64,000 nucleotides of DNA. Origin: Paracoccaceae bacterium (GTDB taxonomy: Bacteria > Pseudomonadota > Alphaproteobacteria > Rhodobacterales > Rhodobacteraceae). A program made the translations under genes and the position numbers. The stretch lies in assembly GCA_018222585.1 (NCBI GenBank), contig JAAFAB010000004.1:124001-188000 (forward strand), given 5' to 3'. Position 1 is the stretch's first letter. Every line of letters starts with the position of its first letter. The notes under the pieces are model-generated. The model saw nothing but the letters and a program-made list of their open reading frames with translations. It was not told the DNA's origin and did no database searches. Positions 432 to 61,081 of the stretch are shown piece after piece.

Positions 432-452
432 GTTCCTCGATCCGAAAGGCGA

Positions 453-2727: not shown

Positions 2728-2750
2728 ACCGCCCGGCGGTGCCGGGCGGT
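2728..2750 (-). terminator. Hairpin terminator downstream of sspB
   Basis: A perfect 10-bp stem (ACCGCCCGGC / GCCGGGCGGT) with a 3-base loop lies just after the sspB stop on the minus strand. The tail is a weak TTTGCC rather than a clean U-run. Confidence 0.55.
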
Positions 2751-2774
2751 GCGATATCACGACAGGGCGTGAAG

Positions 2775-3287
2775 CTACTTGCGGAAGGCGTCGAGACGGA
2801 CCACCTCGGCGTCACCCTTCTCGGCCGGGGCGTCGGAGTCCTCGTCGGCCTTGGAGCGATCGCGCAGCGGCGGGGGGCCATCGGGCGGGGTGGGATCGTC
2901 GTCATCCTCATCCTCGTCGAACTCGTCGTCCTGGTCCTGGGTCTCGAAGCGCAGACCGAATTCGACCGAGGGGTCGACGAAGGTCAGGATGGCGTCCAGC
3001 GGGATATACATCCGCTCGGGGCTGTCGCCGAAGTTCAGCGTCACCGCGAAACCGTCGTCCGAGACGTCGAGGTCCTCGAACCAGTGCTGCATCACCACCG
3101 TCATCTCGGTGGGATAGCGGTCGCGCAGCCAGGCGGCCAGTTCGACCTGCTCATGCGTGGTGTCGAAGGTGATGAAGAAGTGATGCGCGCCCGGCAGACC
3201 GTTCTCTGCCACATCCGTCAGGACGTCATGGATCAGCTTGCGCATCGCGCGGTGCATCAGGTTTCCGTAGTCGATGGATCGGGCCAT
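2775..3287 (-). CDS. sspB: SspB-like ClpXP adaptor (stringent starvation protein B family)
   Basis: SspB delivers ssrA-tagged peptides to the ClpXP protease in the cytosol. The 170-residue product has the folded alphaproteobacterial SspB domain at about 1-115 (starting MARSIDYGNLMHRAMRKLI), then a very acidic flexible linker (about 120-131, nearly all D/E), and ends with VVRLDAFRK, the short tail that docks on the ClpX zinc domain. The ATG at 3287 has GGAAGAA upstream. Its functional partner tmRNA lies in the same window at about 7.1-7.4 kb, although not in the same operon. Confidence 0.88.
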   Translation of the reverse strand: MARSIDYGNLMHRAMRKLIHDVLTDVAENGLPGAHHFFITFDTTHEQVELAAWLRDRYPTEMTVVMQHWFEDLDVSDDGFAVTLNFGDSPERMYIPLDAILTFVDPSVEFGLRFETQDQDDEFDEDEDDDDPTPPDGPPPLRDRSKADEDSDAPAEKGDAEVVRLDAFRK

Positions 3288-3386
3288 TTTGTTCTTCCGG
3301 GGGACACTTTTGGCCGAGCATAGGGGATTCGAACCAAAACGGAAGGCGATGCGGCAGAATTTCGGCGTCCGGGCCTCCGCGGCCCG

Positions 3387-4655
3387 TCAGAGCGCCAGCA
3401 GGCGGCTTGCCAGCCCCAGCAGGGCCATCACGCAGAGGCTGGCCAGGAGACCGGCGCGCAGACCGAAGACCAGGGCGCAGGCGATCAGGATCAGGGCGGC
3501 GGGAATCGGCTGGAAACTTCCGGGATCGGGCAGCGGCAGCGGGCCGAGACGCCCGACCACCTCGAAGAGCACATGCAGCGTGAACCACAGCGCCAGCGAG
3601 GCGATGACGCCGACCACGGCGGCAGTGATCGCCTGCAGGGCGGCGCGCAGGCGGGGCTGGGCCAGCAGGCGCTCGACATGGGGGGCGAAGACGAAGATGA
3701 ACAGGAAGCAGGGCACGAAGGTCACCCAGAGGGTCAGCGCGCCCGCCGCCAGCCCCAGCAACGGCCCCTGCCGAAGGGCGCCGGCGACCATGGCGACGAA
3801 CTGGGTCACCAGGATCAGCGGGCCGGGGGTGGTCTCGGCCAGGCCGAGCGCGTCGATCATCTGGCCCGGGCTGAGCCAGCCGTGTGTTTCCACCGTGACC
3901 TGTGCCATCCAGGCCAGGAGCGCATAGGCGCCGCCGAAGCTGAGCACCGCGAGGCGGGCGAAGAAGGCGCCGAGGTCATAGAGGAAATTCGCCCCCGCCA
4001 GTTTCAGCGCCAGCAATGGCGCCAGCCAGGCACCGGCCCAGAGCAGGGCGGTTCCGAGGCTCCGCCCCAGGGCAGGCGCCGAAGCGAGGGACGGCGCGGG
4101 GGTGTCCTCGGCGGTGCCGCCCTGCCAGAGGCCCCAGGCCCCCGCGACGAGGATCAGCAGGGGAAAGGGCAGGGCAAAGGCGAAGATCGCCAGGAAGGCG
4201 GCAAGGGCCCAGAGCCGTTGCGCCCGCCCGGTAAGGGCCTTGCCCGAGAGCCGCCACAGCGCCTGGCAGACCAGCGCCACCACCAGCGCCTTGATGCCGA
4301 GAAAGGCCGCCTGAACCTGGGGAACCGTGCCCCATTCGACATAGGCCAGCGCCAGCGCCGCAACCACCAGCGCACCGGGCACTACGAACAGAAGGCCCGC
4401 CAGCAGCCCGCCCGCGATGCCCTTCAGCCGCCATCCGGCATAGGTCGCCAGCTGCATCGCCTCGGGGCCGGGCAGCAACATGCAGAAACTGAGGGCGCCC
4501 AGGAATGCCTGTTCCGTCAGCCACTTGCGTTGCTCGACCAATTCGCGGTGCATGACCGAGACCTGCGCCGCCGGTCCCCCGAAGCTGAGCAACCCGATGC
4601 GTCCGAAGGCCAGGACCATCTGCCGCCAATCGGGCAGGGGATGCGACGTGCTCAT
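3387..4655 (-). CDS. chrA: Chromate efflux transporter (CHR family)
   Basis: This 422-residue, strongly hydrophobic protein is a full-length two-domain CHR transporter; such proteins export chromate using the proton gradient. Each half starts with the conserved FxxxGLLSFGGP-type block: GRIGLLSFGGPAAQ at about 18-31, and LAVLSFGGAYALLAW near 237-251. A TTPGPLILVTQF signature follows in the second half. The ATG at 4655 has a GAGGA site. No chrB or other chromate regulator is adjacent, so the native substrate is uncertain. Confidence 0.88.
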   Translation of the reverse strand: MSTSHPLPDWRQMVLAFGRIGLLSFGGPAAQVSVMHRELVEQRKWLTEQAFLGALSFCMLLPGPEAMQLATYAGWRLKGIAGGLLAGLLFVVPGALVVAALALAYVEWGTVPQVQAAFLGIKALVVALVCQALWRLSGKALTGRAQRLWALAAFLAIFAFALPFPLLILVAGAWGLWQGGTAEDTPAPSLASAPALGRSLGTALLWAGAWLAPLLALKLAGANFLYDLGAFFARLAVLSFGGAYALLAWMAQVTVETHGWLSPGQMIDALGLAETTPGPLILVTQFVAMVAGALRQGPLLGLAAGALTLWVTFVPCFLFIFVFAPHVERLLAQPRLRAALQAITAAVVGVIASLALWFTLHVLFEVVGRLGPLPLPDPGSFQPIPAALILIACALVFGLRAGLLASLCVMALLGLASRLLAL

Positions 4656-4774
4656 CGTGGGTCCTCGGGCGCGGTGGCAGGTTTGCGGCGACAGTTGCCG
4701 CAGCGCCTGCGCCGGTCAAGCCATTGCCGAGCGCAGCGCGCGCTCCGTTGCGCCGAAGGCGCAGCAGGGCGCGC

Positions 4775-5083
4775 TCAGGCCCGGTCGATCCGGTGCAGGA
4801 AGGTCCGGTCCTCGCGGATCAGCAGTTGCTCGTCGCGGGCCAGGTCGAAGGCTGCCCGGGCCAGCGGATCCTGCGCCAGCCGCGCCCGGTAGGCTTCGTA
4901 CTCGGCCAGCGACGGAATGTCGTAGATCCCGTAGCCCAGCGTCGCCGATCCCTCGTGGGGGGCGAAATAGCCGCGCAGTTCGGCGCCGTTGCGCGGGATC
5001 GCCTCGCCCCACATCCGGGCATAGGTCTGGAACTGCGCGCGCTTGTGGTGGGCGATCTGGTACTGGATGATGCAGGTCAGCAT
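4775..5083 (-). CDS. NIPSNAP family protein
   Basis: A 102-residue protein of the dimeric alpha/beta-barrel NIPSNAP type begins MLTCIIQYQI and carries the family pattern: an aromatic- and Arg-rich first half, a central YFAPHEGS element and a YEAYRARLAQDP helix. The open frame extends upstream, but the ATG at 5083 is preceded by an excellent AGGAG at the right distance, so the shorter form is used. The biochemical role of bacterial NIPSNAP proteins is unknown. It is divergent from the ArsR-type regulator at 5227, which may control it. Confidence 0.8.
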   Translation of the reverse strand: MLTCIIQYQIAHHKRAQFQTYARMWGEAIPRNGAELRGYFAPHEGSATLGYGIYDIPSLAEYEAYRARLAQDPLARAAFDLARDEQLLIREDRTFLHRIDRA

Positions 5084-5226
5084 GGGGGCTCCTTTCGTCG
5101 GTGCCTTCTTCTGGCACGGCGGAGGGCGGGGTGGTTTCGGTGCGCGCCGAAGCATTTCCGCGCCGGACGTGGCAGACTGGTGACAGAAGACTGGCCACAA
5201 GCGACTGGCGACAAAGGAGTACAGGC

Positions 5227-5934
5227 ATGACCCATCCCGGCCCGGCCTTCCGCGAAGGCCCGCAAGTGGCCCATGTCGCCGCCCTGCTGGGCGATCCGTC
5301 GCGGATGGCGATCCTGCAGGCGCTGATGTCGGGCATGGCGCTGACCGCCAACGAACTGGCACGCGAGGCTGGCGTGGCGCCGAGCACCGCCTCGGGCCAC
5401 CTGTCGCAGCTGCTGGAGGCCGGGTTGCTGGCGGTCACTCCGCAGGGGCGGCACCGCTATTTCCGCATTGCCGGCCCCGAGGTCGCCTCGGCTGTGGAGG
5501 GCCTGATGGGGCTGGCCGAGATCCGTGGTCCCTCGCGCTGCCGTCCCGGGCCACGTGACGCGGCGCTGCGCCGGGCGCGCAGCTGCTACGACCACCTGGC
5601 GGGCAGCCTCGCCGTGCAGCTTCACGACAGCCTGGCGCAGCGCGGTTTCCTGCAGCCGGCTGCGGCGGGGCTGGTACTGACGGGGGAGGGTGCGCAGGCG
5701 CTGGCACCGCTGATCGGGGACCTGCCCGAGGGTATCACCGGGCGCCAGTGCCTCGACTGGTCCGAGCGGCGGATGCACCTGGCCGGACCGCTCGGGAGCG
5801 CGCTGTTGCTGGCCCTGCTGGACAAGGGCTGGCTGCGGCGCGGCGCGGGCCGCGAGATCCGCCCGACACCCGGGGGCGCACGGTCCCTGGCGCAGCTTTT
5901 CCCCCTGCCTCAGGCCAGCGGCGCGGTCTGGTAG
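5227..5934 (+). CDS. ArsR-family winged-helix regulator
   Basis: A 235-residue transcription factor has the ArsR winged helix at about 12-80 (LLGDPSRMAILQAL, then the recognition region ELAREAGVAPSTASGHLSQL). The ~130-residue C-terminal region is longer than a minimal ArsR protein and holds no obvious metal-ligand cluster. The ATG at 5227 has AAAGGAG eight bases upstream. It faces away from the NIPSNAP gene across a 143-bp gap and overlaps the 3' end of the convergent RNA methyltransferase gene by 25 bp. Control of the NIPSNAP gene is an inference from divergence only. Confidence 0.85.
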   Translation: MTHPGPAFREGPQVAHVAALLGDPSRMAILQALMSGMALTANELAREAGVAPSTASGHLSQLLEAGLLAVTPQGRHRYFRIAGPEVASAVEGLMGLAEIRGPSRCRPGPRDAALRRARSCYDHLAGSLAVQLHDSLAQRGFLQPAAAGLVLTGEGAQALAPLIGDLPEGITGRQCLDWSERRMHLAGPLGSALLLALLDKGWLRRGAGREIRPTPGGARSLAQLFPLPQASGAVW

Positions 5935-7025: not shown

Positions 7026-7099
7026 GGCGCCTGATACAGCGAAGCGGCGGCAGAGGCGAGAGCCCGCGTCGAGAGTGCAGATGATCGGTTTGGGGGGAG

Positions 7100-7405
7100 A
7101 AGTGCAGGTTTCTGTTGCCAGGTACCTGCGAACCCCGCCTTAAGCTGCAAAGCCTAAGGGCTTAGATTTCGGTATTCCGGACTGCTTACGCAGCCAGGGC
7201 AACCGGAGCACGATTGTTGTTGGCAATTGTACTTTGTGTACCGATAACGGTGGTAACTCACCGGGACAAAGCAACATCTTTAGACGTTCGTCGATCCTGT
7301 TTCGGCCCCATGATCCCCCAACAAGGGATGTTTGGTGGAGCCGCCGGGTACCGCCCCCGGGTCCGATCCGCTTATTACATGCGCGTTTATGCCCATAGTC
7401 GCCGA
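7100..7405 (-). ncRNA. ssrA: Transfer-messenger RNA, circularly permuted two-piece form
   Basis: tmRNA rescues stalled ribosomes and tags the nascent chain for ClpXP. On the minus strand the acceptor piece comes first and ends with CCGGCGGCTCCACCA, its 3' A at 7333. After a 23-base spacer the coding piece starts GGGGCCG at 7309. GGGGCCG pairs with CGGCTCC to form the 7-bp acceptor stem, which proves the permuted order. A 5-bp T-stem (CCGGG/CCCGG) with a 7-base loop is also visible. The tag frame, 7224-7186, reads GCC AAC AAC AAT ... GCG TAA and encodes ANNNRAPVALAA, close to Rhodobacter tags. Outer boundaries are approximate. A 106-codon open frame across this locus is spurious. Confidence 0.93.
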
Positions 7406-7565
7406 AGCGACATCCCTGATATAGGGCGGGGTGGCGCGGATTTGAAGGGGAAATCGGCAAGGATTTTCATCACGCGGTCAACCTGGCGCCAGGGCCAAGG
7501 CCGCGCCCGGCTTGACCTCGGCCCGTGTCGCGGCAACCCTGCGCCCCGGAAGGAAAGGAGCCGCG

Positions 7566-49786: not shown

Positions 49787-51088
49787 TCAGGGCTTGCCCG
49801 GCGCGCCGGTCGCGGCGCGGCGCAGCCGGCGCCTGGCCCGTCCGCCATGGTCCTCGAAGGGCAGGGCATGAAGCCCGCAGGCCATGCAGTCGGCGGGGGC
49901 ACCGCAGGCGGTCGCCCAGCACTTTACCGGGGCCGCGAGGTCCAGGGCGATCCGTTCGAGATGCTGAACCTTTGACCCCTTGAGCAGGATGACCTCGCCC
50001 GCAATCGCGCTGGCCCGGACGTGGGCGGCGGCGGCCTCGACCGTGGTGACATGGACCAGCCGGCCCGCGGCCTCGGCCTCGGGCAGCAGGCTGCCACGGG
50101 CCGAGCGGTCGGCGACCAGCACCACCTCCTCGGCGACCTCCAGCGCGGCGATGAGCGCGGCGCGCTGCACCTTGCGCCGCTTGCCGTGATAATCCGAAAT
50201 CGAGCCCAGCACGATGCGGCGGCGCGGGGCCGGCGCGTCGCGCAGCGCCTCGAAGGCCAGCCCGAGCGTGTCCAGCGGCGCCTTGGCGCAATCGGCGAAG
50301 AGCACCGGCCCGCCGGGGATGTCGTGGCGCGAGAAGCGGGTCGGCAGCGGCATGGTCCGGGCCAGCGCCTCGGCGATCCGCCCGGGCGCGATGCCGAGCG
50401 CCAGGCAGGTGGTGGCGGCCGCAGCGACGGGCAGGGCGAAATGGCGGGCGGGAAAGCGGGTCGGCAGGGTCAGGGTGCGGCCCTGCCAGACAAGGCTGAC
50501 CGTGATCCCCGACAGCAGGTCGCCGGTGATCGCGGTGATCCGGCCATCCGCCCCGGGGCTTTCGCCGAAGCTGACCACCCGGGCCCCGGTGCGCGCGGCC
50601 ATCGCCATGGCCAGCGGGTCATCGGCGTTGAGCACTGCCAGGCCACCGGGCCGCAGCGCCTCCACCAGCAGGCCCTTTTCGGCGGCGATGGCCTCGCGGC
50701 TGCGGAACTGGCTGAAATGCTCGCGCCCGATCAGGGTGACCACGGCCAAGTCCGGGCAGAGCACGCGGGCCAGGTTGCCCATGTCTCCAGGGCCACCGAC
50801 GCCGGTCTCGGCGACCACGTAGTCGGCGCTTCCGCCCCGGCGCAGGGTGCGCAGCAGCGGGTTGATGGTATTGTCCTGTACCTGCGCCGCGACGCTGCCC
50901 TCGGTGGCGAGGATATCGGCGATCAGCCGCGTGGTCGTCGACTTGGCCGAGCTGCCGGTGACACCGATGTGAAGGCCGGGCGCGCGCAGGCGCCGCCGCC
51001 GCGTCCGGGCGATCAGGAGGGGGCGGAGAAGGCCGGTGCGCAGGCGGCGTTCGAGGCTGGCCAGGCGGCGGCGCGGGGACTGTGGCAT
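49787..51088 (-). CDS. Mur-ligase-like ATP-dependent ligase with C-terminal Cys4 cluster
   Basis: The 433-residue protein has the Mur ligase three-domain plan but is not a standard MurC-F. The P-loop reads GVTGSSAKSTTTR (about 42-54) instead of the usual GxxGTNGKTT. Other Mur elements are kept: the NTINPL region, YVVAETGVGGPGDM (metal/ATP glutamate) and LIGREHFSQF. The carbamylated-lysine area looks like REAIAAEKGLL, and the nucleotide loop like VLNADDPLA. The C-terminus has C390-x4-C-x5-C-x2-C404, a possible zinc or Fe-S site, then an Arg-rich tail. It is the last gene of the PP-loop/GT25/pyruvyltransferase set, so it may join an amino acid to a glycan precursor. Substrate unknown. Confidence 0.75.
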   Translation of the reverse strand: MPQSPRRRLASLERRLRTGLLRPLLIARTRRRRLRAPGLHIGVTGSSAKSTTTRLIADILATEGSVAAQVQDNTINPLLRTLRRGGSADYVVAETGVGGPGDMGNLARVLCPDLAVVTLIGREHFSQFRSREAIAAEKGLLVEALRPGGLAVLNADDPLAMAMAARTGARVVSFGESPGADGRITAITGDLLSGITVSLVWQGRTLTLPTRFPARHFALPVAAAATTCLALGIAPGRIAEALARTMPLPTRFSRHDIPGGPVLFADCAKAPLDTLGLAFEALRDAPAPRRRIVLGSISDYHGKRRKVQRAALIAALEVAEEVVLVADRSARGSLLPEAEAAGRLVHVTTVEAAAAHVRASAIAGEVILLKGSKVQHLERIALDLAAPVKCWATACGAPADCMACGLHALPFEDHGGRARRRLRRAATGAPGKP

Positions 51089-51112
51089 TGTCGGGGTCTG
51101 TCGTCAGGTCGG

Positions 51113-51928
51113 TCAGGTCTTGGACGGGGGGGCGCAGAGCGCTTCGGCCAGGGCTGCGCGCAGCGCGTCCTTGTTGCCTGTGTAACGTCCGACGCGGGCC
51201 TCGGCCAGAGGCGGCGCGCGCAGCAGGTCGGCGGTCAGCGGAAAGGGCTCTCGGGGGGCGTCCAGGGTCGAGAAGTAGTCATCGAACTTGAAGCGCCCGC
51301 CCTGCATCTGCGCCGAGGGGGCCAGCCAGAGGCTCGGGATGGCGAAGGCATCGGCGGCGATCAGCCCGTGCAGCGACTGGCTGAGTACGAGGCGGCAGCG
51401 GCCGATCTCGCGCAGGACCTGCCAGGGCGGACGGGAGACGTCGATCAGGCGCAGTCCCGGGGGCAGCTCCCGGCCCATTTCGCGGCGCAGCGCATTCAGG
51501 CTGCGCACATGGGGGATCAGGCCGATGTCCTCGCCGCCGTCGGGTCGCATCACCCGGTCGACAAGCACCATCGGATCGCCGAGCGGCACCGCCGTCGCGT
51601 CGAGCCCGAGGTGGCGGGCCGAGAGCGCGCCGCGCAGGGCGACGACACGGGCCGGGGCCGGGCGCGGCTCGGCCGGGTCGAGCAGGCCCGCGCCCAGCAC
51701 CGTGGCGCTGTCGGTTGCACGGCCGAGGATGCTGCCCATGCCGAGGAAATGTGCCCGGCTGCGGTCCCGGGTCAGGCGAATGCGCACCCCGGTCAGCGCC
51801 TCGAACAGGTCGGGATTGATGTCGTCGCCGAAATTGGGCGTGCCGACATGCCAGTACATCGGCCGCGCGCCGGGGCCGCGCAGCCGCGCGCGCCAGCCGC
51901 GATGGACCTTGCGCAGCTTGCGGATCAT
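51113..51928 (-). CDS. Polysaccharide pyruvyl transferase family protein
   Basis: The 271-residue protein belongs to the CsaB/WcaK-type family that adds pyruvate ketals to surface sugars using phosphoenolpyruvate. The typical opening is MYWHVGTPNFGDDINPDLFEAL at about 24-45 (N-x-GD-x-L-like). The conserved C-terminal motif is VLSQSLHGLIAADAFAIPSL (SxRxHG-type, here SQSLHG, with the catalytic His). It is a soluble, GT-B-like protein. Its ATG overlaps the stop of the glycosyltransferase gene (51925-51928), and the Mur-like gene starts 24 bp downstream. Confidence 0.85.
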   Translation of the reverse strand: MIRKLRKVHRGWRARLRGPGARPMYWHVGTPNFGDDINPDLFEALTGVRIRLTRDRSRAHFLGMGSILGRATDSATVLGAGLLDPAEPRPAPARVVALRGALSARHLGLDATAVPLGDPMVLVDRVMRPDGGEDIGLIPHVRSLNALRREMGRELPPGLRLIDVSRPPWQVLREIGRCRLVLSQSLHGLIAADAFAIPSLWLAPSAQMQGGRFKFDDYFSTLDAPREPFPLTADLLRAPPLAEARVGRYTGNKDALRAALAEALCAPPSKT

Positions 51929-52674
51929 GGCCGGTTCCGCCGCGATTGCAGCGCGATCCGCATCCGGTAGAGCGGCCGCAGCACCTCGCGGCGCAGCCGT
52001 TCGGCGGGCGGGACATGGCGATGGATCGAACTGCCGCCGAGGCTGCAGGAGATGTCGCGCACCCCGGACGGCCAGACCGAGAGCATCTCGACCCCGTGCA
52101 GCCAGCGCAGTTGCAGGAAGGTGTCCACCGGGCGGTCGAAGCGGCGCGTGGCCTCCAGCAGCCGGGCAGCGGCGGTGCGGGTCACCACCTGGGCGCGCAT
52201 CCCCAGGCCGACGGGATCCGGGCGCAGCAGACGCGGCCCCGGGCAGTGCCCGGCAAGGCGGGGGCCGCGTTCCGAGGGCCTGACGGGAAAGCGCACCATC
52301 GCGGTCTCCGGCAGATGGGCCAGGGCAAGTGCCAGCGCGGCAGGAAAGCGGGGACCGAGATCCACATCGTCTTCCAGGATCAGAGCGGCGGGGTGGCCAC
52401 CATCGAGGATCGCCTGCCAGCAGGCGCGATGACTGAGGAAGGTCGCCACCTCGGCGGGGCGCAGGGCGAAGGGATAGGGCGGCGTGGCGCAGGGGGCCAG
52501 GGGCGCGGCAAGCGCCTCGGGGGTCATGGCGGCACCGTCGATGGCAGGCAGCACGCGCGCGGCAGGGCCGAGCTGGGCCAGCAGCGCCTCGACCCGGGGG
52601 CGCCGGGCCCTGTTGCGCTGCAGGTGGATGATCAGGGCCGGCAGGGACGCGGTGGTGAGGGGGGACGGGCTCAT
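51925..52674 (-). CDS. Glycosyltransferase family 25 protein
   Basis: A 249-residue member of the LOS/LPS glycosyltransferase family 25, which commonly transfers galactose. Its features are the N-terminal ALIIHLQRNRARRPRVEALL strand-helix, the FLSHRACWQAIL motif (family S-H-x-x-x-W) and the metal-binding LILEDDVDLGPRF (EDD). A later MRAQVVTRTAAARLLEA segment is also typical. The C-terminal third is basic. The ATG at 52674 overlaps the stop of the PP-loop gene (52671-52674); a longer frame exists but covers that gene. It acts at the cytoplasmic face on a glycolipid. Confidence 0.86.
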   Translation of the reverse strand: MSPSPLTTASLPALIIHLQRNRARRPRVEALLAQLGPAARVLPAIDGAAMTPEALAAPLAPCATPPYPFALRPAEVATFLSHRACWQAILDGGHPAALILEDDVDLGPRFPAALALALAHLPETAMVRFPVRPSERGPRLAGHCPGPRLLRPDPVGLGMRAQVVTRTAAARLLEATRRFDRPVDTFLQLRWLHGVEMLSVWPSGVRDISCSLGGSSIHRHVPPAERLRREVLRPLYRMRIALQSRRNRP

Positions 52675-53960
52675 GGGCGCGCCCTGCGCCAGCGGGCCCG
52701 ATGGCGCCAGATCCGCTGACGGGGTTTCAGCCAGCCCTGCAGCGCCTTCAGCGGCCCTCCGGTGCGCCGGTGGTAGGCGACAACACCTGCGTCGATGGCG
52801 GCGACGTGATCGTCGCGCCCGGCCCGTTCGGCCATGGCCCGCATCATCGCGGCCTCGTCCAGGTGGCGCAGGTAGCTGACCCAGAGCGGGGTCTGCACCG
52901 GGTCGATGTCGGGAAAGCTGGTGGCCCGGGCACGGTCGCCGAGGATGTCGAGGGTCCGCAGGACGAAATTGCATTTCGGGCAGCGCCCGCAATTGACGCT
53001 GGTCTGGGTGCAGACGCGCAGCTCGGGCAACATGCTGCCCTCTTCGGCAACCCGGGCGATCTTTTCGACGCGGGGGTGGGGGCGGTGATGGACGACCTCA
53101 AGGGCGGGCGCCGAGAACAGCGGGTCCAGATGCGGATGAGAGCCCCAGGGCGTGAAATCCCCGAGATCGCTGGAGGCGGCGATCAGCAGCTCGCCGAAAT
53201 GCTCAGACAGCATGTGCCCGATGGCGGCCAGTGCGCCGCCGTGCATCTCGATCCAGCCGGCAAAGGGGTGGAATTTCTGTCGCAGGTCGGTCTCGATGAT
53301 GATGGCCTCGAGGCCGCGCTTGTCCGCCAAGGCCCGGGTGCGGGCCTCCATCGCGGCGCTCTCGACGGTGTCGGAAAGCGGCACGTCGACGCCAAGCAGG
53401 GTGATCAGCGCGGTGACCCTGTCGCGGGCCTCGATCAGCGAGAAGCTGGAATCCACCCCGCCAGAGTAGAACAGCCCGGTGCCAGGCACCGGCGCGCGCG
53501 GCGCGGCAGTGCCGCTGGTGCGTACTGTCACGGGGCGGCAGCCGGGCCACCAGGTAACGAAGTGATCGGTGATCTCGCCGGCGCGGGCCAGCAGTTCGGG
53601 CGCCGGAGCGCCGTCGATCTGCAGGGCGGTGCCCAGCTCGGAGGCGGCGAAGAGACCGAGGCAGAGCAGGGCCTCGGGCGCCTCGCGCAGGCTCTGGCCG
53701 GTGCGGGCGCGGAAGGCGACGGAGAACAGCGGCGTGTCGCCGCGCGCGACCTGCACGGTGATCTCGCTGGCGTCCCGGCGCGGGCCGAAGGAGAGGGAAA
53801 GCGCCTGTGTCACGGGCAGAGTCCCGGCGGCGAAGGGACCAACGAAAAGATGACGATCGGCAAACGGCAGGCTGGCATGACTCGTAAAATGACCGCCTGC
53901 GGACCGGCGGCGTGATTCCCCCTCGTGACCCGTCGACCCTAGCCGAGCTGCCCCCTGCAC
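52671..53960 (-). CDS. QueC-like PP-loop ATPase with Cys4 motif, in a glycan gene set
   Basis: The ~429-residue protein has an N-terminal domain (~1-160) of unknown type, then an adenine-nucleotide alpha-hydrolase/PP-loop domain with FYSGGVDSSFSL (about 164-175), the ATP-pyrophosphatase signature. Further on, VCTQTSVNCGRCPKCNF gives four cysteines spaced x6-x2-x2, a likely zinc site as in QueC. The C-terminus is very basic. QueC makes a nitrile on deazaguanine, but this protein is longer and sits with glycosyl and pyruvyl transferases, so an amide- or ligase-like step on a sugar is possible. No ATG start exists: a GTG at 53960 is used, and another GTG at 54014 abuts the kinase stop. Confidence 0.68.
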   Translation of the reverse strand: MQGAARLGSTGHEGESRRRSAGGHFTSHASLPFADRHLFVGPFAAGTLPVTQALSLSFGPRRDASEITVQVARGDTPLFSVAFRARTGQSLREAPEALLCLGLFAASELGTALQIDGAPAPELLARAGEITDHFVTWWPGCRPVTVRTSGTAAPRAPVPGTGLFYSGGVDSSFSLIEARDRVTALITLLGVDVPLSDTVESAAMEARTRALADKRGLEAIIIETDLRQKFHPFAGWIEMHGGALAAIGHMLSEHFGELLIAASSDLGDFTPWGSHPHLDPLFSAPALEVVHHRPHPRVEKIARVAEEGSMLPELRVCTQTSVNCGRCPKCNFVLRTLDILGDRARATSFPDIDPVQTPLWVSYLRHLDEAAMMRAMAERAGRDDHVAAIDAGVVAYHRRTGGPLKALQGWLKPRQRIWRHRARWRRARP

Positions 53961-54014: not shown

Positions 54015-55235
54015 TCAGGCCGGCAGGAGGGCGGTGAAGTCGTTGAAAAGGGTTGCGCCGCCCATCTGGCCGCCTTTCAGCATGATCCGCATCCGGTCGC
54101 GCGCCGGGTCGGGGTGGCGACCGAGGCACAGCGGCACGCCCGGCGCCAGGTTGCGCTGGTATTCCAGCGCCGCAAGGCCGAGGCGGGCACAGATCCGGCT
54201 GGAGGTATCGCCCCCCGCCAGGCCGAGGTGGCCGACGGGCTGACGGGCCAGGATCTCCGCGACGAGCTGGCTGCAGGTCTCGGCCAGCGCATCGGGACTC
54301 TGCCCGTAGTCGGCGCCGGGGAGCAGGTGCAGCAGCACGGGGCGGCCCGTTGCCAGCCGCGCGGCGACGCGGGCGGGCAGGTCGGGATCGCCAAGCGCTT
54401 CGGGCGGCAGGGGCAGCTTGTCATAGCCCTCAGCCGCCTCGATCTGGCGGCTGGTCAGGCTGGAACGGCTGCCGGCAAAGAGCAGCACGCCCCGCGTGCC
54501 GGGCGGCGGGGCCTCGGGCAGCTCCCGTGCGGTGCGGTCGCGGGTCAGGATCTCGGCCACCGAGCTGGGGCCGATCAGCAATTGCCGCCCGCCTGCCGCC
54601 GCCAGCAGGCTGGCGATACGACCCTGGTCGGCGGGTTTCATCACGTCGAACAGCACTGGCCCGGCGCGCAGTTGCAGCGCCGCCGTGGCGGCATCGGGCA
54701 GGTCGGGGGCCGAGATCAGCTCAAGCCCGTCGAGGCCCTGGCCCGCGAGGTGGCGGCGCAGGTCGGCCTCGGCCATCGGGGTCACCGGGTGACTTGCCAT
54801 GATCGGGTGGCGGTCGATGCGGTGCACCGCGCCGTCGGGCCCGCGCGCGAAGAGGGTGCCGAAGGCGCAGTAGCGCCCCAGGCTGGGCTGGCCGCCGATG
54901 ACGGCGGTGATCTCGGGGCGGAACCGCCGCGCAAGTTCCAGCGCCACGGCCCCGATACTGCCGACATGGGGCGCGCTGTCGAAGGTCGAACAGGTCTTCA
55001 GGTGCAGCACGCGCGGGGCTGCGGCTTCGATCCTCGGCCAGAGGCGGTCGATCTCGGCCAGGGCCCGCTCGGGCGTCAGAGAGCGCAGGTCGGTCGGCAG
55101 GCCCAGCACCTCCAGCCCGTCGTCGGCCTGCGAGGGGGCGAGTTGCAGCCGCGCCGACAGCCCGTGACGCGCATAGGTCGCCAGGCTGTCGGAAGCGCCG
55201 GTGAAATCGTCGCCGATGAAGACGATCCCGGCCAT
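54015..55235 (-). CDS. Four-carbon acid sugar kinase family protein (OtnK/OiaK, DUF1537)
   Basis: The 406-residue kinase has the DUF1537 two-domain form. The N-terminal domain starts with the substrate motif IGDDFTGASDSLATYA, and the C-terminal nucleotide-binding domain has LLFAGSRSSLT and the LAGGDTSSRICARLGL signature. Characterised relatives phosphorylate D-threonate, D-erythronate or 3-oxo-isoapionate. Here the ATG overlaps the stop of the RuBisCO-like gene by one base (55235), which favours an OiaK-like role: making the phosphorylated substrate for that enzyme. Substrate is an inference. Confidence 0.86.
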   Translation of the reverse strand: MAGIVFIGDDFTGASDSLATYARHGLSARLQLAPSQADDGLEVLGLPTDLRSLTPERALAEIDRLWPRIEAAAPRVLHLKTCSTFDSAPHVGSIGAVALELARRFRPEITAVIGGQPSLGRYCAFGTLFARGPDGAVHRIDRHPIMASHPVTPMAEADLRRHLAGQGLDGLELISAPDLPDAATAALQLRAGPVLFDVMKPADQGRIASLLAAAGGRQLLIGPSSVAEILTRDRTARELPEAPPPGTRGVLLFAGSRSSLTSRQIEAAEGYDKLPLPPEALGDPDLPARVAARLATGRPVLLHLLPGADYGQSPDALAETCSQLVAEILARQPVGHLGLAGGDTSSRICARLGLAALEYQRNLAPGVPLCLGRHPDPARDRMRIMLKGGQMGGATLFNDFTALLPA

Positions 55236-56500
55236 CAGCGCGCGCCGAAGAATTGCATGGCGGCTGCCAGCGCGGGGCGGGTGCGGGCGCCGTCTTCCAG
55301 GCTCAGCCCCGAGGTCAGCGCCTCATGCGCTTCCCGCAGCGAGGCGACGCCCTGGGCGGGGCCGGCGGGATGGGCCAGGATGCCACCGCCGCACATGAAC
55401 ATCAGGTCCGAAGACCCGGCGGCCTCCAACGTCTGCGGCAGGGTGCCCGCCCATTGGCCGGACGAGAAGGCGGGCATGACACGGTCGTCCTGACCGCCGT
55501 CGCTGAGCGGGGCGAGGCAGAGCCGGGCGCCCTCGGTCACTTCCTCGGCGGTGTCGACGAACTTGCCGCCGATGCCGTGGACATGCATGTGATCGACCCC
55601 GGCGAGGCGATAGAGCGCCTGGTAGGCCGGGAAGGACATGCCGAGCAGCGGATGGCGGCTCATCGCGCCGAAGCCGTTGCGGTGCGCGTGGATCGCCAGA
55701 GGGGTGTGGTTGCGCAGGGTCTCCATTCCCGAGAGGCCGCACCAGTTCAGCGAGGCCATGACGCAGGAGCCGCCCTCGGCCGCGACCAGATCGGCATGGC
55801 GGCGCATGGCGTCTGTCTCGTCGGTGATGTTGAAGGCCATCATCACCTTGCGCCCCGTTTTCTCCTGCCACTTGCGGATCACCGCCATGACGGCGGGCAC
55901 GCGCTGTGCCAGAGGGGCGACGTCGGGGTTGGCGCAGATCTCGTCATCCTTGATGAAATCGACACCCGCCGCACAAAGCCGGTCGACCAGCGCAGCGATA
56001 TCCTCGGGCGTCATGCCGACATTGGGCTTGATGATGGTGCCGAAGATCGGCGCCTCGGCCACGCCCAGATCGGCGCGGGTGCCCGCAATGCCACGGGTCG
56101 GCAGCGGGTAGCGCGCGCGATAGGCGGCGGGGATCTCAAGGCCCGTCAGCTTCAGGCCAGTGATCTCTCCGATATCGTAGAGATTGCCGGACACCGTGGC
56201 CGCCAGCGTCGGCAGGTTGCGCCCGATGTTGCCCGTCGGATAGGCGATGCGGACCCGCGCGCGGCGGAACGGCCCGGAGGGTTGCTTGCGCGCGACATAG
56301 GCCGAATGAAGGGTCGGCGCCGGGGCGCTGTCGATCTCTTCGACCGACAGGACCCGGGCGGCGGAGCGCGCGCGCAACTCGTCGGTTTCGCCTTCGACAC
56401 GCACGAAGGTGCCCGAGCTCTGCTCGCCGGCCATCATGGCAGCGACGTCCTGAAGCGGGTAGGGCGTTTCCAGCAGGTAGCTGGCGATCACGGTTTCCAT
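55235..56500 (-). CDS. RuBisCO-like protein (form IV large-subunit homologue)
   Basis: The 421-residue protein has the RuBisCO large-subunit fold: an N-terminal domain (1-130) and a TIM barrel. Active-site positions are kept: K158 in GTIIKPN, the carbamylated-lysine and metal triad K184-D186-E187 in DFIKDDE, and H273-R274 in IHAHRNG. H306 and loop-6 K313 lie in HMHVHGIGGK, the phosphate-binding SSGQ at about 346-349, and GGG at 371-373. In apionate catabolism such proteins decarboxylate (OiaX) or transcarboxylate (OiaT) 3-oxo-isoapionate-4-phosphate. The kinase next door fits, but the exact reaction cannot be read from sequence. True CO2 fixation is unlikely: there is no small subunit or phosphoribulokinase. 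Confidence 0.9.
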   Translation of the reverse strand: METVIASYLLETPYPLQDVAAMMAGEQSSGTFVRVEGETDELRARSAARVLSVEEIDSAPAPTLHSAYVARKQPSGPFRRARVRIAYPTGNIGRNLPTLAATVSGNLYDIGEITGLKLTGLEIPAAYRARYPLPTRGIAGTRADLGVAEAPIFGTIIKPNVGMTPEDIAALVDRLCAAGVDFIKDDEICANPDVAPLAQRVPAVMAVIRKWQEKTGRKVMMAFNITDETDAMRRHADLVAAEGGSCVMASLNWCGLSGMETLRNHTPLAIHAHRNGFGAMSRHPLLGMSFPAYQALYRLAGVDHMHVHGIGGKFVDTAEEVTEGARLCLAPLSDGGQDDRVMPAFSSGQWAGTLPQTLEAAGSSDLMFMCGGGILAHPAGPAQGVASLREAHEALTSGLSLEDGARTRPALAAAMQFFGAR

Positions 56501-56503
56501 GGA

Positions 56504-57055
56504 TCAGATCTTCGACAGGTCCGGGAAGGGGCGCACGGGGTCCGAGCCGTCCCAGTCCTGCGAGGCTTCGCGGATCAGGTCGAACATGCGGCCCTTGGGG
56601 CCCAGCACTTCGGAGAGCTCGATGCAGGTGCCGGGGTGATGTTCCTCGGCGAAGTAGACGAAGCGCCCGTTCTGGCCGACCTGGCCCGACATCTTCACGG
56701 TGAAACCCTGCTCCAGCATCATCGCCAGATCCTTGTCGAACTCGTTGGTCCAGAAGGCGACGTGCTGAAGGCCGCGCAGGCCCTTCTGCATGAAGTCGCG
56801 GTACATCGAGGGCACGTCGTTGCGGGTCTGGATCAGCTCGACCTGCATCTCGCCGGAATTGGCCAGCGCGACCGAGTTGTGGGGCTGATAGCTTTGCCCG
56901 TCGTAGGTGTAGTTCTCGATCGGCACCTGCGGGTTGTAGTACCAGGGGCCGACGCCCATGACCTCGGCCCAGTGCGTCATGCCGGCTTCGATGTCGTCGA
57001 CGACGATGCCCAGCTGACGGATGGGGCCCAGCTGACTGACGGGAAGTTTGCTCAT
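56504..57055 (-). CDS. VOC (glyoxalase-fold) protein in the RuBisCO-like operon
   Basis: The 183-residue protein has two paired betaalphabetabetabeta modules of the vicinal-oxygen-chelate superfamily, nearest to the methylmalonyl-CoA epimerase/glyoxalase_4 pattern. The likely metal positions are Q14 (RQLGIVVDD, usually His), E73 (MQVELIQ), H98 (LQHVAFW) and E146 (CIELSE). It ends with a polar, family-unlike tail. It lies 3 bp upstream of the RuBisCO-like gene and 8 bp after dctM, so it is co-expressed and may act as isomerase, epimerase or dioxygenase on the same sugar acid. No function can be assigned. Confidence 0.8.
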   Translation of the reverse strand: MSKLPVSQLGPIRQLGIVVDDIEAGMTHWAEVMGVGPWYYNPQVPIENYTYDGQSYQPHNSVALANSGEMQVELIQTRNDVPSMYRDFMQKGLRGLQHVAFWTNEFDKDLAMMLEQGFTVKMSGQVGQNGRFVYFAEEHHPGTCIELSEVLGPKGRMFDLIREASQDWDGSDPVRPFPDLSKI

Positions 57056-57063
57056 CGGGAACC

Positions 57064-58341
57064 TCAGTTCATCAATGTTTCGGGAAGCCAGGTGGAGAGC
57101 GCCGGAACGGCGGAGACCACGAGGAGAGAGAGGAGAAGCGGGATGAAGAAGGGCATGACGCCCGCGATCACCCGGTTGACCGGCATCCTGGTGATGATGG
57201 TGATCATGTAGAGGCTCATGCCGACGGGGGGGGTCAGCAGGCCGATCATCAGGTTCAGCACGAAGACGATGCCCAGTTGCAGCGGGTCCACCCCGGCCAT
57301 GGTCAGCGCAGGCGCGATGATCGGCGCGATGATCAGGATGGCGGCGATGCTTTCCAGCACCATGCCGACCAGCAACAGGAAGACATTGACCAGCAGCAAC
57401 AGCACCAGCGGGTTTTCCGACAGCGAAAGCAGGAAGCCCGAGGCCTTCATCGGCACCTGGTCCAGCGTCAGCACCCAGGCGAAGAGTGCCGCCGTCGCCA
57501 CCACGAACAGGATGTTGGCCGTCGCCTCGACCGTGTCGCGCAGGGCGCGGAAGAGGTTGGCGAAACTCAGCGTCCGGTAGATCGCCACGCCGATGAAGAT
57601 CGAGTAGGCGACGGTGACGCCTGCCACTTCGGTCGGGCCGAAGAAGCCGCTCATCAGCCCGCCGATCAGGAAGAGGGGGGCCAGCAGGGCGGGGAAGGAA
57701 ATCGCGGCCTTGCGGGCGATGGCGCGGGGTTCGGCGCGGATGTCGTCGCGGGGCAGATCCTTGACCCGGGCCACGATGGCGACCTGCACCATCAGCAGCA
57801 CGGTCAGCAGCAGCGCCGGGATGATGCCCGCCAGCAGCAGTTTCACCGCACTGACATTGGCGACCGAGGCATAGATGATGATCGGGATCGAGGGCGGGAA
57901 GATCGGTCCGATGGTGGCCGCCGCGACGGTCAGGCCGGCGGCGAATTCCTCGCGGTAGCCCTGCTTCTTCATCTGGTCGATCTGGATCGCGCCAAGCGCA
58001 CCAATGTCGGCCAGCGCCGCGCCCGAGACGCCCGAGAAGATCAGCGAGACCAGGATGCTGACCTGCGCCACGGCACCGCGAATGCGGCCCAGCACCATGC
58101 GCACCAGGTCGAAGAGATGGGTGGTGACGCCGGTCAGGCTCAGCAGGTTGGCGGCGAAGATGAACAGCGGCACCGCCAGCAGGGGCGAGCTGTCCAGCGC
58201 GTTCAGGCTGCGCTGCGCCAGCACCGACAGCGGCAGGCCCTGCCAGTAGATCACCACGGCCGAGGACAGGCCGAGACAGATCGCAATCGGGGCGCCCAGG
58301 GCCAGAAGCGCCAGGAAGAGAAGGACCAGAAGAAGGCTCAT
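57064..58341 (-). CDS. TRAP transporter large permease subunit (DctM)
   Basis: The 425-residue membrane protein is the 12-TM channel subunit of a tripartite ATP-independent periplasmic transporter, which drives uptake of organic acids with the sodium gradient. The DctM signatures are the SGVSGAALADIGALGAIQI stretch, PIFPPSIPIIIYA, and the C-terminal NLMIGLLTPPVGMSLYMI block. It overlaps dctQ by four bases upstream (58338-58341) and is followed by the VOC gene. With DctP and DctQ it is the uptake system for the substrate of the downstream kinase and RuBisCO-like protein. Confidence 0.95.
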   Translation of the reverse strand: MSLLLVLLFLALLALGAPIAICLGLSSAVVIYWQGLPLSVLAQRSLNALDSSPLLAVPLFIFAANLLSLTGVTTHLFDLVRMVLGRIRGAVAQVSILVSLIFSGVSGAALADIGALGAIQIDQMKKQGYREEFAAGLTVAAATIGPIFPPSIPIIIYASVANVSAVKLLLAGIIPALLLTVLLMVQVAIVARVKDLPRDDIRAEPRAIARKAAISFPALLAPLFLIGGLMSGFFGPTEVAGVTVAYSIFIGVAIYRTLSFANLFRALRDTVEATANILFVVATAALFAWVLTLDQVPMKASGFLLSLSENPLVLLLLVNVFLLLVGMVLESIAAILIIAPIIAPALTMAGVDPLQLGIVFVLNLMIGLLTPPVGMSLYMITIITRMPVNRVIAGVMPFFIPLLLSLLVVSAVPALSTWLPETLMN

Positions 58342-58871
58342 GTGGGCAGTCCGGTATCGTCGCGGGGGTCGTGATAGGGGGCGGTGGCGGGGCGGCCGGT
58401 CAGGGCGGCGACCACCCGGTCCAGCGCCACGGCGGCCAGCACCGCATGACCGACCAGCGCGAGGGAGTAGTAGACCCAGTTCGGCAGTTGCATGGCCGGG
58501 GTCAGGAACTTGCCGGCACGCGGCAGGTATTCGGCGAAGCTCTGCAGCAGCAGGGCGGCAAAGAGCAGCGTGGCGAGGTCGCAGGCAAAGGCCATCCAGC
58601 CACGGACCTTCGGCGGGCAGGCATCGGGCAGCATGGTCACGGCGACCAGCACCTGACGGCCCGCAAGGCAGGGCACGCCCAGGAAGACCAGCCCGATGGC
58701 GCTGAAGCGGGCCAGCTCATCGGCCCAGGGCAGGCCGAGATCGAAGAAGTTCCGCGCCGCCACCTGCAGCACGACCAGGCAGGTCATCAGCGCCAGTAGG
58801 GCCACGCCGCAGAGGATCCCGAGACGGGTGAGCCGCGCGAGATACGCGCGGCCCCTTTCGTGACGGCTCAT
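58338..58871 (-). CDS. TRAP transporter small permease subunit (DctQ)
   Basis: The 177-residue protein has four TM helices and the DctQ family pattern: NFFDLGLPWADELARFSAIGLVFLG at about 41-65, with the conserved E-L-x-R-x-S segment, and a second hydrophobic hairpin near residues 125-155. It begins with a basic cytoplasmic segment. It overlaps dctP (58871) and dctM, so the three transporter genes are translationally coupled. Confidence 0.92.
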   Translation of the reverse strand: MSRHERGRAYLARLTRLGILCGVALLALMTCLVVLQVAARNFFDLGLPWADELARFSAIGLVFLGVPCLAGRQVLVAVTMLPDACPPKVRGWMAFACDLATLLFAALLLQSFAEYLPRAGKFLTPAMQLPNWVYYSLALVGHAVLAAVALDRVVAALTGRPATAPYHDPRDDTGLPT

Positions 58872-59884
58872 CAGGAAACCGCCGCGATCTTCTCGTAGAG
58901 CGCGCCGTACTGCTGGCCGAAACGCTCGTCGACGAGGCTGCTGACCGAGGCGCGGAAGGCCGCGAGGTCAAGGCCCTCGGCCTCGCCGATCACGGTCATG
59001 CCGAGGTCGCGCAGCTGCTGCGTTTCGCTTTCCTCGTTGTCCAGAATGGCCTTGGTGGCCTTCTGGCGGGTCTGCTCGGCGGCCTCGCGCACCGCGTCCT
59101 GCTCGGTCGCGGACATGCCCTGCCAGGTGTCCTCGTTCATCACGACGACTTCGGCGTTGGACATGTGGCCGGTCAGCATGAGGTGGCTCTGCACCTCGTA
59201 GAGCTTGACGTTGAGCACCACGTTGACCGGGTTCTCCTGGCCCTGCACGACGCCGGTGGCCAGCGCGGTCGGGACCTCGGACCAGTCGACGGGGACGGCG
59301 ACGGCGCCCATGCCCTCGACGGCGGTGGTGTAGATCGGGAAGGGCACGGCGCGGATCTTGGTGCCGGCCAGGTCCTCGGGGCTCATCACCGCCTTGTTGC
59401 AGGTCAGGTTGCGGCGGCCGAAGTAGTGGGCGTAGATCACCCGCACGTTCGCGGCGGCGATCAGGCCCTCGTTCAGCTCCTGCATCACCGGGCTGTCGAC
59501 GTCGGTCACCTTCATCAGGTGATCCACGTCACGGTAGAGGTAGGGCGTGTCCAGCGCCGCGAAGGGCTGGTAGAGCGAACCGAGCGCGCCGGCGGTGTTG
59601 TGCGAAAACGCGATGGTGCCCAGCGAGACGGCCTCGGCCAGTTCCTGCAGCTTGCCCAGCTGGCTGTTCGGGAAGACCTGCACCTCGATGTCGCCGCCCG
59701 AGGTCTGGCCGAGAGCTTCGGCGAACCAGTCGGCCTGTGCGCCGGCCACCGAGGCGACCTCGTTGTTGTGGCCGTAGCGCAGGGTGGTCGCGGCGAAGGC
59801 CGGACGGGCGATGAAAGGCGCGGCCAGGGCTGCGCCGCCCAGGGCCAGCACGCTGCGGCGGGTCGGTTGAAGTCGCTTCGTCAT
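58871..59884 (-). CDS. TRAP transporter substrate-binding protein (DctP family)
   Basis: The 337-residue periplasmic binding protein starts with a Tat-like signal, MTKRLQPTRRSVLALGGAAL, cleaving near ARPAFA. The mature domain contains the DctP/YiaO patterns: DIEVQVFPNSQLGKLQELAE, the LAGTKIRAVPFPIYTTAVEGMGA region with the substrate-carboxylate Arg in KIRA, and GVVQGQENPVNVVLNVKLYE. The ATG at 59884 has GGGAGGAA upstream and is preferred to an in-frame start at 59932. It is the first gene of the operon, so its ligand defines what the whole system uses. Confidence 0.94.
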   Translation of the reverse strand: MTKRLQPTRRSVLALGGAALAAPFIARPAFAATTLRYGHNNEVASVAGAQADWFAEALGQTSGGDIEVQVFPNSQLGKLQELAEAVSLGTIAFSHNTAGALGSLYQPFAALDTPYLYRDVDHLMKVTDVDSPVMQELNEGLIAAANVRVIYAHYFGRRNLTCNKAVMSPEDLAGTKIRAVPFPIYTTAVEGMGAVAVPVDWSEVPTALATGVVQGQENPVNVVLNVKLYEVQSHLMLTGHMSNAEVVVMNEDTWQGMSATEQDAVREAAEQTRQKATKAILDNEESETQQLRDLGMTVIGEAEGLDLAAFRASVSSLVDERFGQQYGALYEKIAAVS

Positions 59885-59960
59885 ATGAGTTCCTCCCAGG
59901 TAGTCATGACGTTTTTTGATGGCTCGCATCATCTCCTCGCAATGCGCCGCCCCTGATACA

Positions 59961-59982
59961 CTTGCACAAACACCGTGTGTTG
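59961..59982. promoter_or_regulatory. Possible LacI-family operator between dctP and the regulator gene
   Basis: In the 171-bp divergent gap the sequence CTTGCACAAACACCGTGTGT contains an odd-centred palindrome ACAC-C-GTGT. Divergent operons with a LacI regulator usually carry such an element, but this one is short and could be chance. Confidence 0.25.
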
Positions 59983-60055
59983 ACGAAAGCTAAGGTTTCG
60001 GGGCAGCTTCAGTCAAAGGAAATGGATTGACGGTTTTTGAGGGGTTCTGACGCAA

Positions 60056-61081
60056 ATGAGCGACAGGGACGGAGGGGCGGGACGGCCGCAGCTGATGGAT
60101 ATCGCCGAGCGCGCGGGGGTCTCGCTGGCGACGGTGGACCGGGTGATCAACCGCCGCAAGGGGGTGAAGGAGCGTACCCGGGTGCGGGTGTTGGAAGCGG
60201 CCTCGGCGCTTGGCTACCTGAGCGAGGGCGAGGCGGCGCGCTATGGCGGAGAGCGGCCGCTGAACATCGTCGTGCTGCTGCCGGCAGGCACCAACCCCTA
60301 CCTGCGCCTGCTGGGCGACCGTCTGCGCGACCGGGTGGCGCGGAGCGGGCAGGGCGACCCGGTGCTGCGCTGCTTCTTCATCGAGAGCTTCAATGCCCGC
60401 GCCCTGGCCGAGGCGCTGCGGCGCAATGCAGGCTGGGCCGACGGGATCATCTTCTTCGCCATCGAACATCCCGAGGTGCGCGAGGCCGCCGCCGAGGTCG
60501 CGGCGCAGGGCACACGGCTGGTCAGCATCGTCTCGGACCTCGGCGGCTCGCCCGGGATCGCCCATGTCGGGCTCGACAACCGCGCCGTCGGGCGCACGGC
60601 GGGGCTGCTGATCGGCCGGCTGGCGGGACAGGCGGGGGGCGCGGTGGCGCTTGTCGCGGGGTCGCGCCACTACCGCGCCCATTCCGAACGGGAAGCGGGC
60701 TTCCTGTCGATCCAGGAAGAGCTCTTTCCCGATCTGCGTGTCGTCGGGATGCGCGAGGGGCATGACGATGCCGGGCAGAACTACCGTCATGCCCTGGCGC
60801 TGTTCGAGCAGGAGCCGGACCTAGTGGGGATCTACAACGTCGGCGGCTCGTCCGGTGGGATCACCCGCGCGATGCGCGAGTGCAACCGGCAGGGGCTGGT
60901 GTTCATCGGCCACGGTCTGACCGCCGACACCCGCCGGGCGATGGTCGAGGGCACGATGGATGCGATCTTCGACCAGGACCCGGACGGGCTGATCGACCGC
61001 GCCATCCGCTGCCTGACCGTGCCCGGAGACCTGCCGCGCCCGCTGAAGCTGGATATCTATTTCCGTGAGAATTTGCCTTGA
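60056..61081 (+). CDS. LacI-family transcriptional regulator
   Basis: The 341-residue regulator has the LacI headpiece at about 13-65 (LMDIAERAGVSLATVDRVINRRKGVKERT), a hinge helix, and a periplasmic-binding-protein-like effector domain (70-341) with NIVVLLPAGTNPYLRLLGDRL and GIYNVGGSSGGITRAMREC. The V-D-R-V-I-N recognition is typical of sugar regulators. It is divergent from the TRAP-VOC-RuBisCO-like-kinase operon and is very probably its control gene, with a sugar acid as inducer. The ATG at 60056 is used. Confidence 0.93.
   Translation: MSDRDGGAGRPQLMDIAERAGVSLATVDRVINRRKGVKERTRVRVLEAASALGYLSEGEAARYGGERPLNIVVLLPAGTNPYLRLLGDRLRDRVARSGQGDPVLRCFFIESFNARALAEALRRNAGWADGIIFFAIEHPEVREAAAEVAAQGTRLVSIVSDLGGSPGIAHVGLDNRAVGRTAGLLIGRLAGQAGGAVALVAGSRHYRAHSEREAGFLSIQEELFPDLRVVGMREGHDDAGQNYRHALALFEQEPDLVGIYNVGGSSGGITRAMRECNRQGLVFIGHGLTADTRRAMVEGTMDAIFDQDPDGLIDRAIRCLTVPGDLPRPLKLDIYFRENLP

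Follow-up and report, generated by a model that had tools for sequence, protein, structure and literature searches.

The window analysed here, a 64,000-nt stretch of a Paracoccaceae bacterium genome (assembly GCA_018222585.1, contig JAAFAB010000004.1, positions 124,001 to 188,000), carries a compact operon in which a RuBisCO-like protein (RLP) is encoded together with a transporter, a VOC protein and a sugar-acid kinase. All seven open reading frames (ORFs) of the set were seen, six minus-strand genes opposite a plus-strand LacI-type regulator gene, and their coordinates and Pfam matches bear out this arrangement as described in an earlier note on this DNA. From the kinase side, the minus-strand genes encode a putative four-carbon acid-sugar kinase of the OtnK/OiaK superfamily (54015-55235; Pfam SBD_N and NBD_C), the RLP, of a VOC-linked clade (55235-56500; RuBisCO_large and RuBisCO_large_N), a VOC protein with a methylmalonyl-CoA-epimerase-like fold that is probably a metal-dependent isomerase (56504-57055; Glyoxalase_4), the TRAP large permease DctM (57064-58341; Pfam DctM, and TIGR00786 at 371.5 bits, cut-off 268.45), the small permease DctQ (58338-58871; Pfam DctQ) and the solute-binding protein DctP (58871-59884; Pfam DctP), whose start at 59884 was chosen from comparison with relatives such as locus L036, the longest ORF beginning at 59932. 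DctP, DctQ and DctM are all present and adjoining, so that the TRAP transporter is complete in the window, and the successive junctions measure -1, +3, +8, -4 and -1 bp (negative values are overlaps and positive values gaps). A divergent regulatory region, a putative operator/promoter with TTTTGA-type repeats recognized from 7-mer counts (59885-60055), separates the operon from the plus-strand gene of the LacI-type regulator, which carries a Peripla_BP_4 ligand domain (60056-61081; Pfam LacI and Peripla_BP_4).

A species-genome scan returned 231 related stretches, and the best 80 (loci L023-L102, with RLP identities of 63-98%) were analysed, weaker relatives being left uncounted and L122 and L149, which had no RLP call, unused. 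The gene-neighbourhood analysis of the VOC-RLP pair that the earlier note had proposed found the pair adjoining in 80/80 of these loci, the VOC gene being called directly upstream of the RLP gene in each. The note had taken the VOC gene for an insertion; the constant pairing refutes this, and in the loci seen this RLP clade always has the VOC protein as its partner. The kinase gene was called directly downstream of the RLP gene in 76/80 loci, and in L031, L043, L050 and L055 it was located in the expected place by tblastn, truncated by the contig end in L043. Because it is kept in relatives of such varied RLP identity, this gene order is more than chance, and the 80 loci rule out a chance or merely local gene set. 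The closest named relative among them is Oceanicola sp. S124 (L023; RLP identity 98%), and hosts of the module include Salipiger, Hoeflea, Mesorhizobium, Bosea, Azospirillum, Roseomonas, Thalassospira and Billgrantia. Plasmid-borne copies were found in Alphaproteobacteria and in one Comamonadaceae strain, and the genes flanking the module mostly differ between loci. The transporter varies as well: 56 of the 80 loci have a window-like DctP, 22 another DctP, as a rule with a fused DctQM, and 2 start inside the module; in L154 (genome G858) an amino-acid-type ABC system stands in place of TRAP, with VOC, RLP and kinase intact. The varying flanks, the plasmid copies and the exchangeable transporter therefore indicate that VOC, RLP and kinase form the core, a short-chain dehydrogenase (SDR) gene standing first in the operon at a minority of loci. 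By these comparisons the operon is a stand-alone, horizontally mobile, predicted catabolic unit, and a real and widespread type centred on an RLP clade of its own. The open-licence literature searched yielded no paper dealing with this gene set.

Gene calls placed a LacI-type regulator close to the module in 74/80 named loci. For the regulatory regions, 7-mers were counted in 80 of 87 sequences, the near-duplicates L023, L103-L107 and L151 being excluded; TTTGATG occurred in 44/80, TTTGACG in 35/80 and TTTGAGG in 33/80, as against at most 8/80 for any 7-mer in 20 shuffles, a contrast inflated by the relatedness of the loci. The divergent region of the window itself contains TTTTGATGG and TTTTGAGG, TTTGACG being absent from it, and a search for simple palindromes that might serve as LacI operator turned up no consistent site.

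Carter et al. are said to have described, in 2018, a D-apiose catabolic system in which a 3-oxo-isoapionate kinase (OiaK) works with the RLP OiaT, a 3-oxo-isoapionate-4-phosphate transcarboxylase/hydrolase; the RLP OiaX is the corresponding 3-oxo-isoapionate-4-phosphate decarboxylase. The RLP of the window, the sole RuBisCO_large match in its source genome, belongs to the RuBisCO superfamily, with 218.8 bits to RuBisCO_large (cut-off 30.1) and 36.7 to RuBisCO_large_N (cut-off 20.7), and stays below the cut-off for type III RuBisCO (TIGR03326, 231.8 against 497.45 bits). It matches the OiaX model NF042437 over its full length, but at 399 bits it falls below the cut-off of 700, which the OiaX positives of L167 and L188 exceed (787 and 780 bits). 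The best solved structure is 3nwr (556 bits, 60% identity), an RLP whose function is unstated and for which no paper combining 3NWR and RuBisCO was found in the open-licence literature. In a tree of 150 tips without outgroup, the VOC-linked RLPs, a group set beforehand by the residues His308 and Thr353 and tested afterwards, formed a clade of 103 tips with support 1.0, and nine OiaX-clade RLPs formed another, also with support 1.0. In a smaller tree with partial 2qyg as distant outgroup, from which RLPs under 385 aa were excluded (3/120; the limit was 381 aa in the later alignment), the VOC clade held 97 tips with support 0.983 and included 3nwr. When partial 2qyg was added to the larger tree, the VOC clade split was lost. 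The window RLP is 39-43% identical to the OiaX clade and 44-52% to the other non-OiaX relatives. On these alignments and trees, the VOC-linked RLPs are placed beside, not within, the D-apionate RLPs. The motifs Lys158, Lys184-Asp-Asp-Glu187, His273-Arg274, His304/His306, Lys313 and Ser347 were located, their RuBisCO equivalents being assigned by hand, and by sequence the RLP keeps RuBisCO-type catalytic motifs.

Twenty positions were taken as OiaX-marking, being fixed in the nine OiaX-clade RLPs and different in at least 85% of 38 other relatives. At 15 of these the VOC clade's majority state agrees with the other relatives, at 2 (85 and 180) with OiaX and at 3 (188, 227 and 245) with neither. 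Asn106, His304 and His306, which by hand alignment we take to be RuBisCO Asn123, His325 and His327, are each present in 103/103 VOC-clade RLPs, the OiaX clade having Gly, Gln and Gln. Plain OiaX identity of the RLP was rejected on its score and the missing OiaX-marking residues. Decarboxylation would be less likely, because the RLP lies under the OiaX cut-off and lacks most of these residues. The uptake-to-decarboxylation module of the earlier note is therefore kept in part: a self-contained uptake-to-cleavage unit, related to yet distinct from the D-apiose/apionate systems, is predicted, and it is the decarboxylation that has become less likely. Homologues of TIM and RpiB follow the kinase gene in the OiaX-clade loci L167, L188 and L191, and a search with these homologues over the proteins of L023-L122 and L148-L167 returned, besides L167, only an RpiB-like protein (35% identical) in L052. 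Ancylobacter belongs to the same family as Xanthobacter. Among 30 genomes of Ancylobacter's genus, 16 have an apionate-type RLP, accompanied by ApnO- and ApnL-like genes, and 3 the VOC type; in its apionate-type loci L192, L228 and L248-L253, the kinase gene is followed by an ApnO-like gene, with no TIM or RpiB gene between. A passage of PMC6302742 reports the transcarboxylase/hydrolase from Xanthobacter autotrophicus. The residue states at the OiaX-marking positions, and the gene order without intervening TIM or RpiB in the apionate-type loci of Ancylobacter's genus, favour a putative OiaT-like reaction for the RLP.

The kinase of the window scored 189 bits against OiaK (NF042436, cut-off 700) and 113 against OtnK (cut-off 350). 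The eight apionate-type kinases scored also lie under the OiaK cut-off, at 452-590 bits, and in a tree from which 1/110 kinases had been left out beforehand, 88 VOC-module kinases stood separate with support 0.999. The VOC protein has invariant residues of metal-ligand type and reaches 26.5 bits against methylmalonyl-CoA epimerase (TIGR03081), under the cut-off of 114.95; it differs from that enzyme and from 3gm5 of the VOC superfamily also in that the operon has no CoA-pathway gene. We know of no VOC-superfamily example of a metal-assisted ketol rearrangement. For DctP, the predicted model of which is moderate (pLDDT 78), the nearest solved chains are 4p9k/4pak, 4nq8 and 4pdh; homologues of the TRAP protein IseP have been solved with pantoate or erythronate, the chains being unnamed in the relevant passage of PMC11668362. 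Chain 4oan matched the DctPs of three VOC operons, L094 (410 bits), L222 (445 bits, at the end of a long ORF) and L226 (432 bits). Its density was reportedly modelled as 2-acetolactate, a compound with the 2-hydroxy-3-oxo skeleton of 3-oxo-isoapionate.

Among 149 Rhodobacterales genomes, a related RLP (E<=1e-30) was found in 19 and the VOC protein (E<=1e-15) in 9, in 8 of which it stands beside this RLP type. In the ninth, G053, a VOC gene (49% identical) follows two SDR genes and precedes a TRAP transporter (L187), and an apionate-type RLP-kinase pair lies on a different contig (L111). The VOC module probably serves a different input, because G015, G114 and G867 hold it together with a separate apionate-type operon that has an ApnO-like gene, and G952 together with an SDR-type RLP operon. 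The source genome, which is 99.93% complete, has no match to the apionate oxidoisomerase (ApnO-like queries) or lactonase (ApnL), no genome-wide search having been made for ApsD-type Gfo/Idh dehydrogenases, and neither ApnO-like nor ApnL matches were found in five further VOC-module genomes (G066, G039, G078, G046 and G014). Of the 12 genomes tested, the same queries matched an ApnO-like protein in 6 and ApnL in 5 (1 above cut-off), and these matches are the positive controls, the ApnO label of cluster c10 being assigned from gene position and a weak ketol-acid reductoisomerase match. The absence of the usual oxidoisomerase and lactonase, pointed out in the earlier note, thus extends in these searches to the whole source genome, and the idea of apionate steps hidden elsewhere in it was rejected. 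An ApnL-like gene lies near the module in G015 (L036 and L106) and G114 (L107), beyond a two-component system past the LacI gene; in L036 it scores 393.5 bits (cut-off 750) and a Gfo/Idh gene is also found there (region 1-5342). A tie between the VOC module and apionate metabolism is plausible in these two related genomes. Import of a later intermediate may take place; some operons are SDR-headed, and in two genomes ApnL-like and Gfo/Idh genes lie a few genes from the module.

One locus links the two types of operon. In L164 (genome G715), the regulator, the TRAP genes and the VOC gene are of VOC-module type, the VOC protein nesting accordingly in the tree, and the RLP (452 bits to OiaX) and the kinase (551 bits to OiaK) are nested in the apionate-type clades. 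It appears that one RLP-kinase cassette was swapped here for the other, which makes it plausible that the VOC-module and apionate-type cassettes would act on the same phosphorylated intermediate.

Compared with the OiaT/OiaK system, the operon has in common the RLP superfamily, an acid-sugar kinase adjoining the RLP, and Asn106, His304 and His306 as in the presumed OiaT-like clade; it differs in that neither ApnO nor ApnL is in the window or was detected in the genome, in its constant VOC protein and in RLP invariants of its own. The threonate/erythronate pathway proceeds from a 2-oxo-tetronate isomerase (OtnI) through the kinase OtnK to OtnC, that is, by isomerization, phosphorylation and C-C cleavage. 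This logic and the kinase superfamily are shared, whereas the window has a VOC protein in place of OtnI, an RLP in place of OtnC and a kinase far below the OtnK cut-off. As far as gene content and similarity scores can tell, the operon adds a variant to the kinase-plus-RLP routes already known for acid sugars and stands outside the OiaX family.

We tentatively propose, at somewhat less than an even chance, that the operon breaks down an oxo acid of the 3-oxo-isoapionate type, small, polyhydroxylated and probably branched, by means of a VOC isomerase, a kinase and an OiaT-like RLP cleavage. The TRAP transporter would bring in a sugar acid with a 2- or 3-oxo group, or else an acid to be oxidised by the dehydrogenase that some operons encode; the VOC protein would isomerise it to the 2-hydroxy-3-oxo acid used by the kinase (3-oxo-isoapionate or a close analogue); the kinase would phosphorylate the terminal hydroxyl; and the RLP would carry out an OiaT-like carboxyl transfer and hydrolysis to yield 3-phosphoglycerate and glycolate. 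These two products enter central metabolism without further dedicated enzymes, so that the module could be as short as it is. A more specific version, in which the VOC protein (with the SDR where present) replaces ApnO by converting an imported 2-oxo acid to 3-oxo-isoapionate through a metal-assisted ketol rearrangement, and the 3nwr clade represents a second line of RuBisCO-type transcarboxylase/hydrolases, one that depends on VOC, must be called unlikely.

Several observations weigh against the proposed route. The VOC clade has six invariant residues of its own (Asp109, Asn160, Ala236, His308, Gly312 and Thr353, each 103/103), none of them seen among the 38 other non-OiaX relatives except Ala236 and Thr353, once each, and the two VOC-module kinases scored against OiaK reach 189 (window) and 283 (L154) bits; because of these invariants and low scores, the substrate of the clade may differ from that of the 3-oxo-isoapionate route. 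The non-OiaX states shared at the marking positions may be ancestral and not functional, and at 5/20 positions they are not shared. The term OiaT-like is itself deduced from the loci of Ancylobacter's genus, and TIM and RpiB homologues were seen in only 3/9 OiaX-clade loci. The exchange in L164 is a single case, the ABC binding protein of L154 belongs to an amino-acid-binding family, and SDR-headed RLP-kinase operons without a VOC gene (L158, L159 and L227) indicate that the VOC protein is dispensable in some related routes.

A doubtful but serious alternative keeps the same uptake-kinase-RLP route and makes the RLP a simple, OiaX-like decarboxylase that would release CO2 from a 3-oxo acid phosphate and leave a ketose or triose phosphate; an unbranched 3-oxo-tetronate would give dihydroxyacetone phosphate, with the VOC protein in the role of OtnI. 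A shift from a 2-oxo to a 3-oxo acid is a proton transfer and would suit the VOC fold, the kinase is of the OtnK superfamily, and the nearest solved chains of DctP, together with the pantoate- or erythronate-bound IseP homologues (chains unnamed in that part of PMC11668362), point the same way. However, the VOC clade shares the OiaX state at only 2/20 marking positions and that of the other relatives at 15/20, the RLP stays at 399 bits against a cut-off of 700, the kinase is nearer to OiaK than to OtnK (189 against 113 bits), and in L164 it is an apionate-type RLP and kinase that accompany the VOC gene.

Rather doubtful, too, is that the operon handles some other branched acid, such as a 2-C-carboxy or 2-C-hydroxymethyl sugar acid, by an RLP reaction not yet described, the VOC protein being an epimerase or an enzyme acting on a ring or lactone and not an isomerase that supplies the kinase. 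Such a route would accommodate the clade-specific invariants of the RLP, the separate kinase clade and the occurrence of the module in G015, G114 and G867 alongside a separate apionate-type operon, which suggests a non-redundant substrate, but the exchange in L164 and the arrangement in G053 tie the VOC protein to apionate-type RLP-kinase pairs. That the operon is simply a diverged D-apiose/apionate operon, with the missing steps encoded elsewhere in the genome, is very improbable: although the RLP and kinase families of that pathway are the nearest ones and G015 and G114 have ApnL-like genes close to the VOC module, the source genome and the five further VOC-module genomes gave no ApnO-like or ApnL match to queries that did match in other genomes.

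Other RLP-kinase operons were seen in the course of the analysis. Five (L158, L159, L227, L172 and L175) have SDR genes and neither a VOC nor an ApnO-like gene inside the operon, with TRAP genes in L158, L159, L227 and L175, an MFS transporter in L172, and a LysR-type regulator annotated in L172 and L175; in L175 an ApnO-like gene lies ~5 kb downstream. Such SDR-type operons may reach the same intermediate from a different input. In L162, L163 and L170 (Croceibacterium) the RLP-kinase pair directly follows a GH127-type beta-L-arabinofuranosidase-like gene, and polysaccharide-degradation genes surround it in L170. On a Halalkalicoccus plasmid (L173, a haloarchaeon) the pair occurs with an ApnO-like gene and a GntP permease, and on a Rufibacter plasmid (L174, Bacteroidota) with a gene of the aspartate/glutamate racemase family and a pectinesterase. 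Two database proteins, P0322 and P0324, share 75% identity with the RLP of the VOC module in L222 and carry their source's label '3-oxo-isoapionate-4-phosphate transcarboxylase/hydrolase'. In the window, ~200 bp past the kinase gene and on the same strand, 52671-53813 encodes a 380-aa protein without a Pfam match or a clustered counterpart in the other loci; it belongs to a minus-strand stretch (49787-53813) that continues with genes carrying glycosyltransferase 25, polysaccharide pyruvyl transferase and Mur-ligase domains. A tmRNA lies at 7095-7425 on the minus strand, marked 'tmRNA*' by ARAGORN, which was taken as the permuted type, with the tag ANNNRAPVALAA.

Few RLPs have assigned reactions. 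The present comparison ties a whole RLP clade, including 3nwr, to a minimal and widespread set of genes for a transporter, a VOC protein, a kinase and a regulator, and this set makes the substrate of the RLP findable, since the binding protein of the TRAP system lends itself to direct screening. The VOC protein would gain a new metabolic role, and a catabolic clade with RuBisCO catalytic motifs would bear on the evolution of RuBisCO chemistry.

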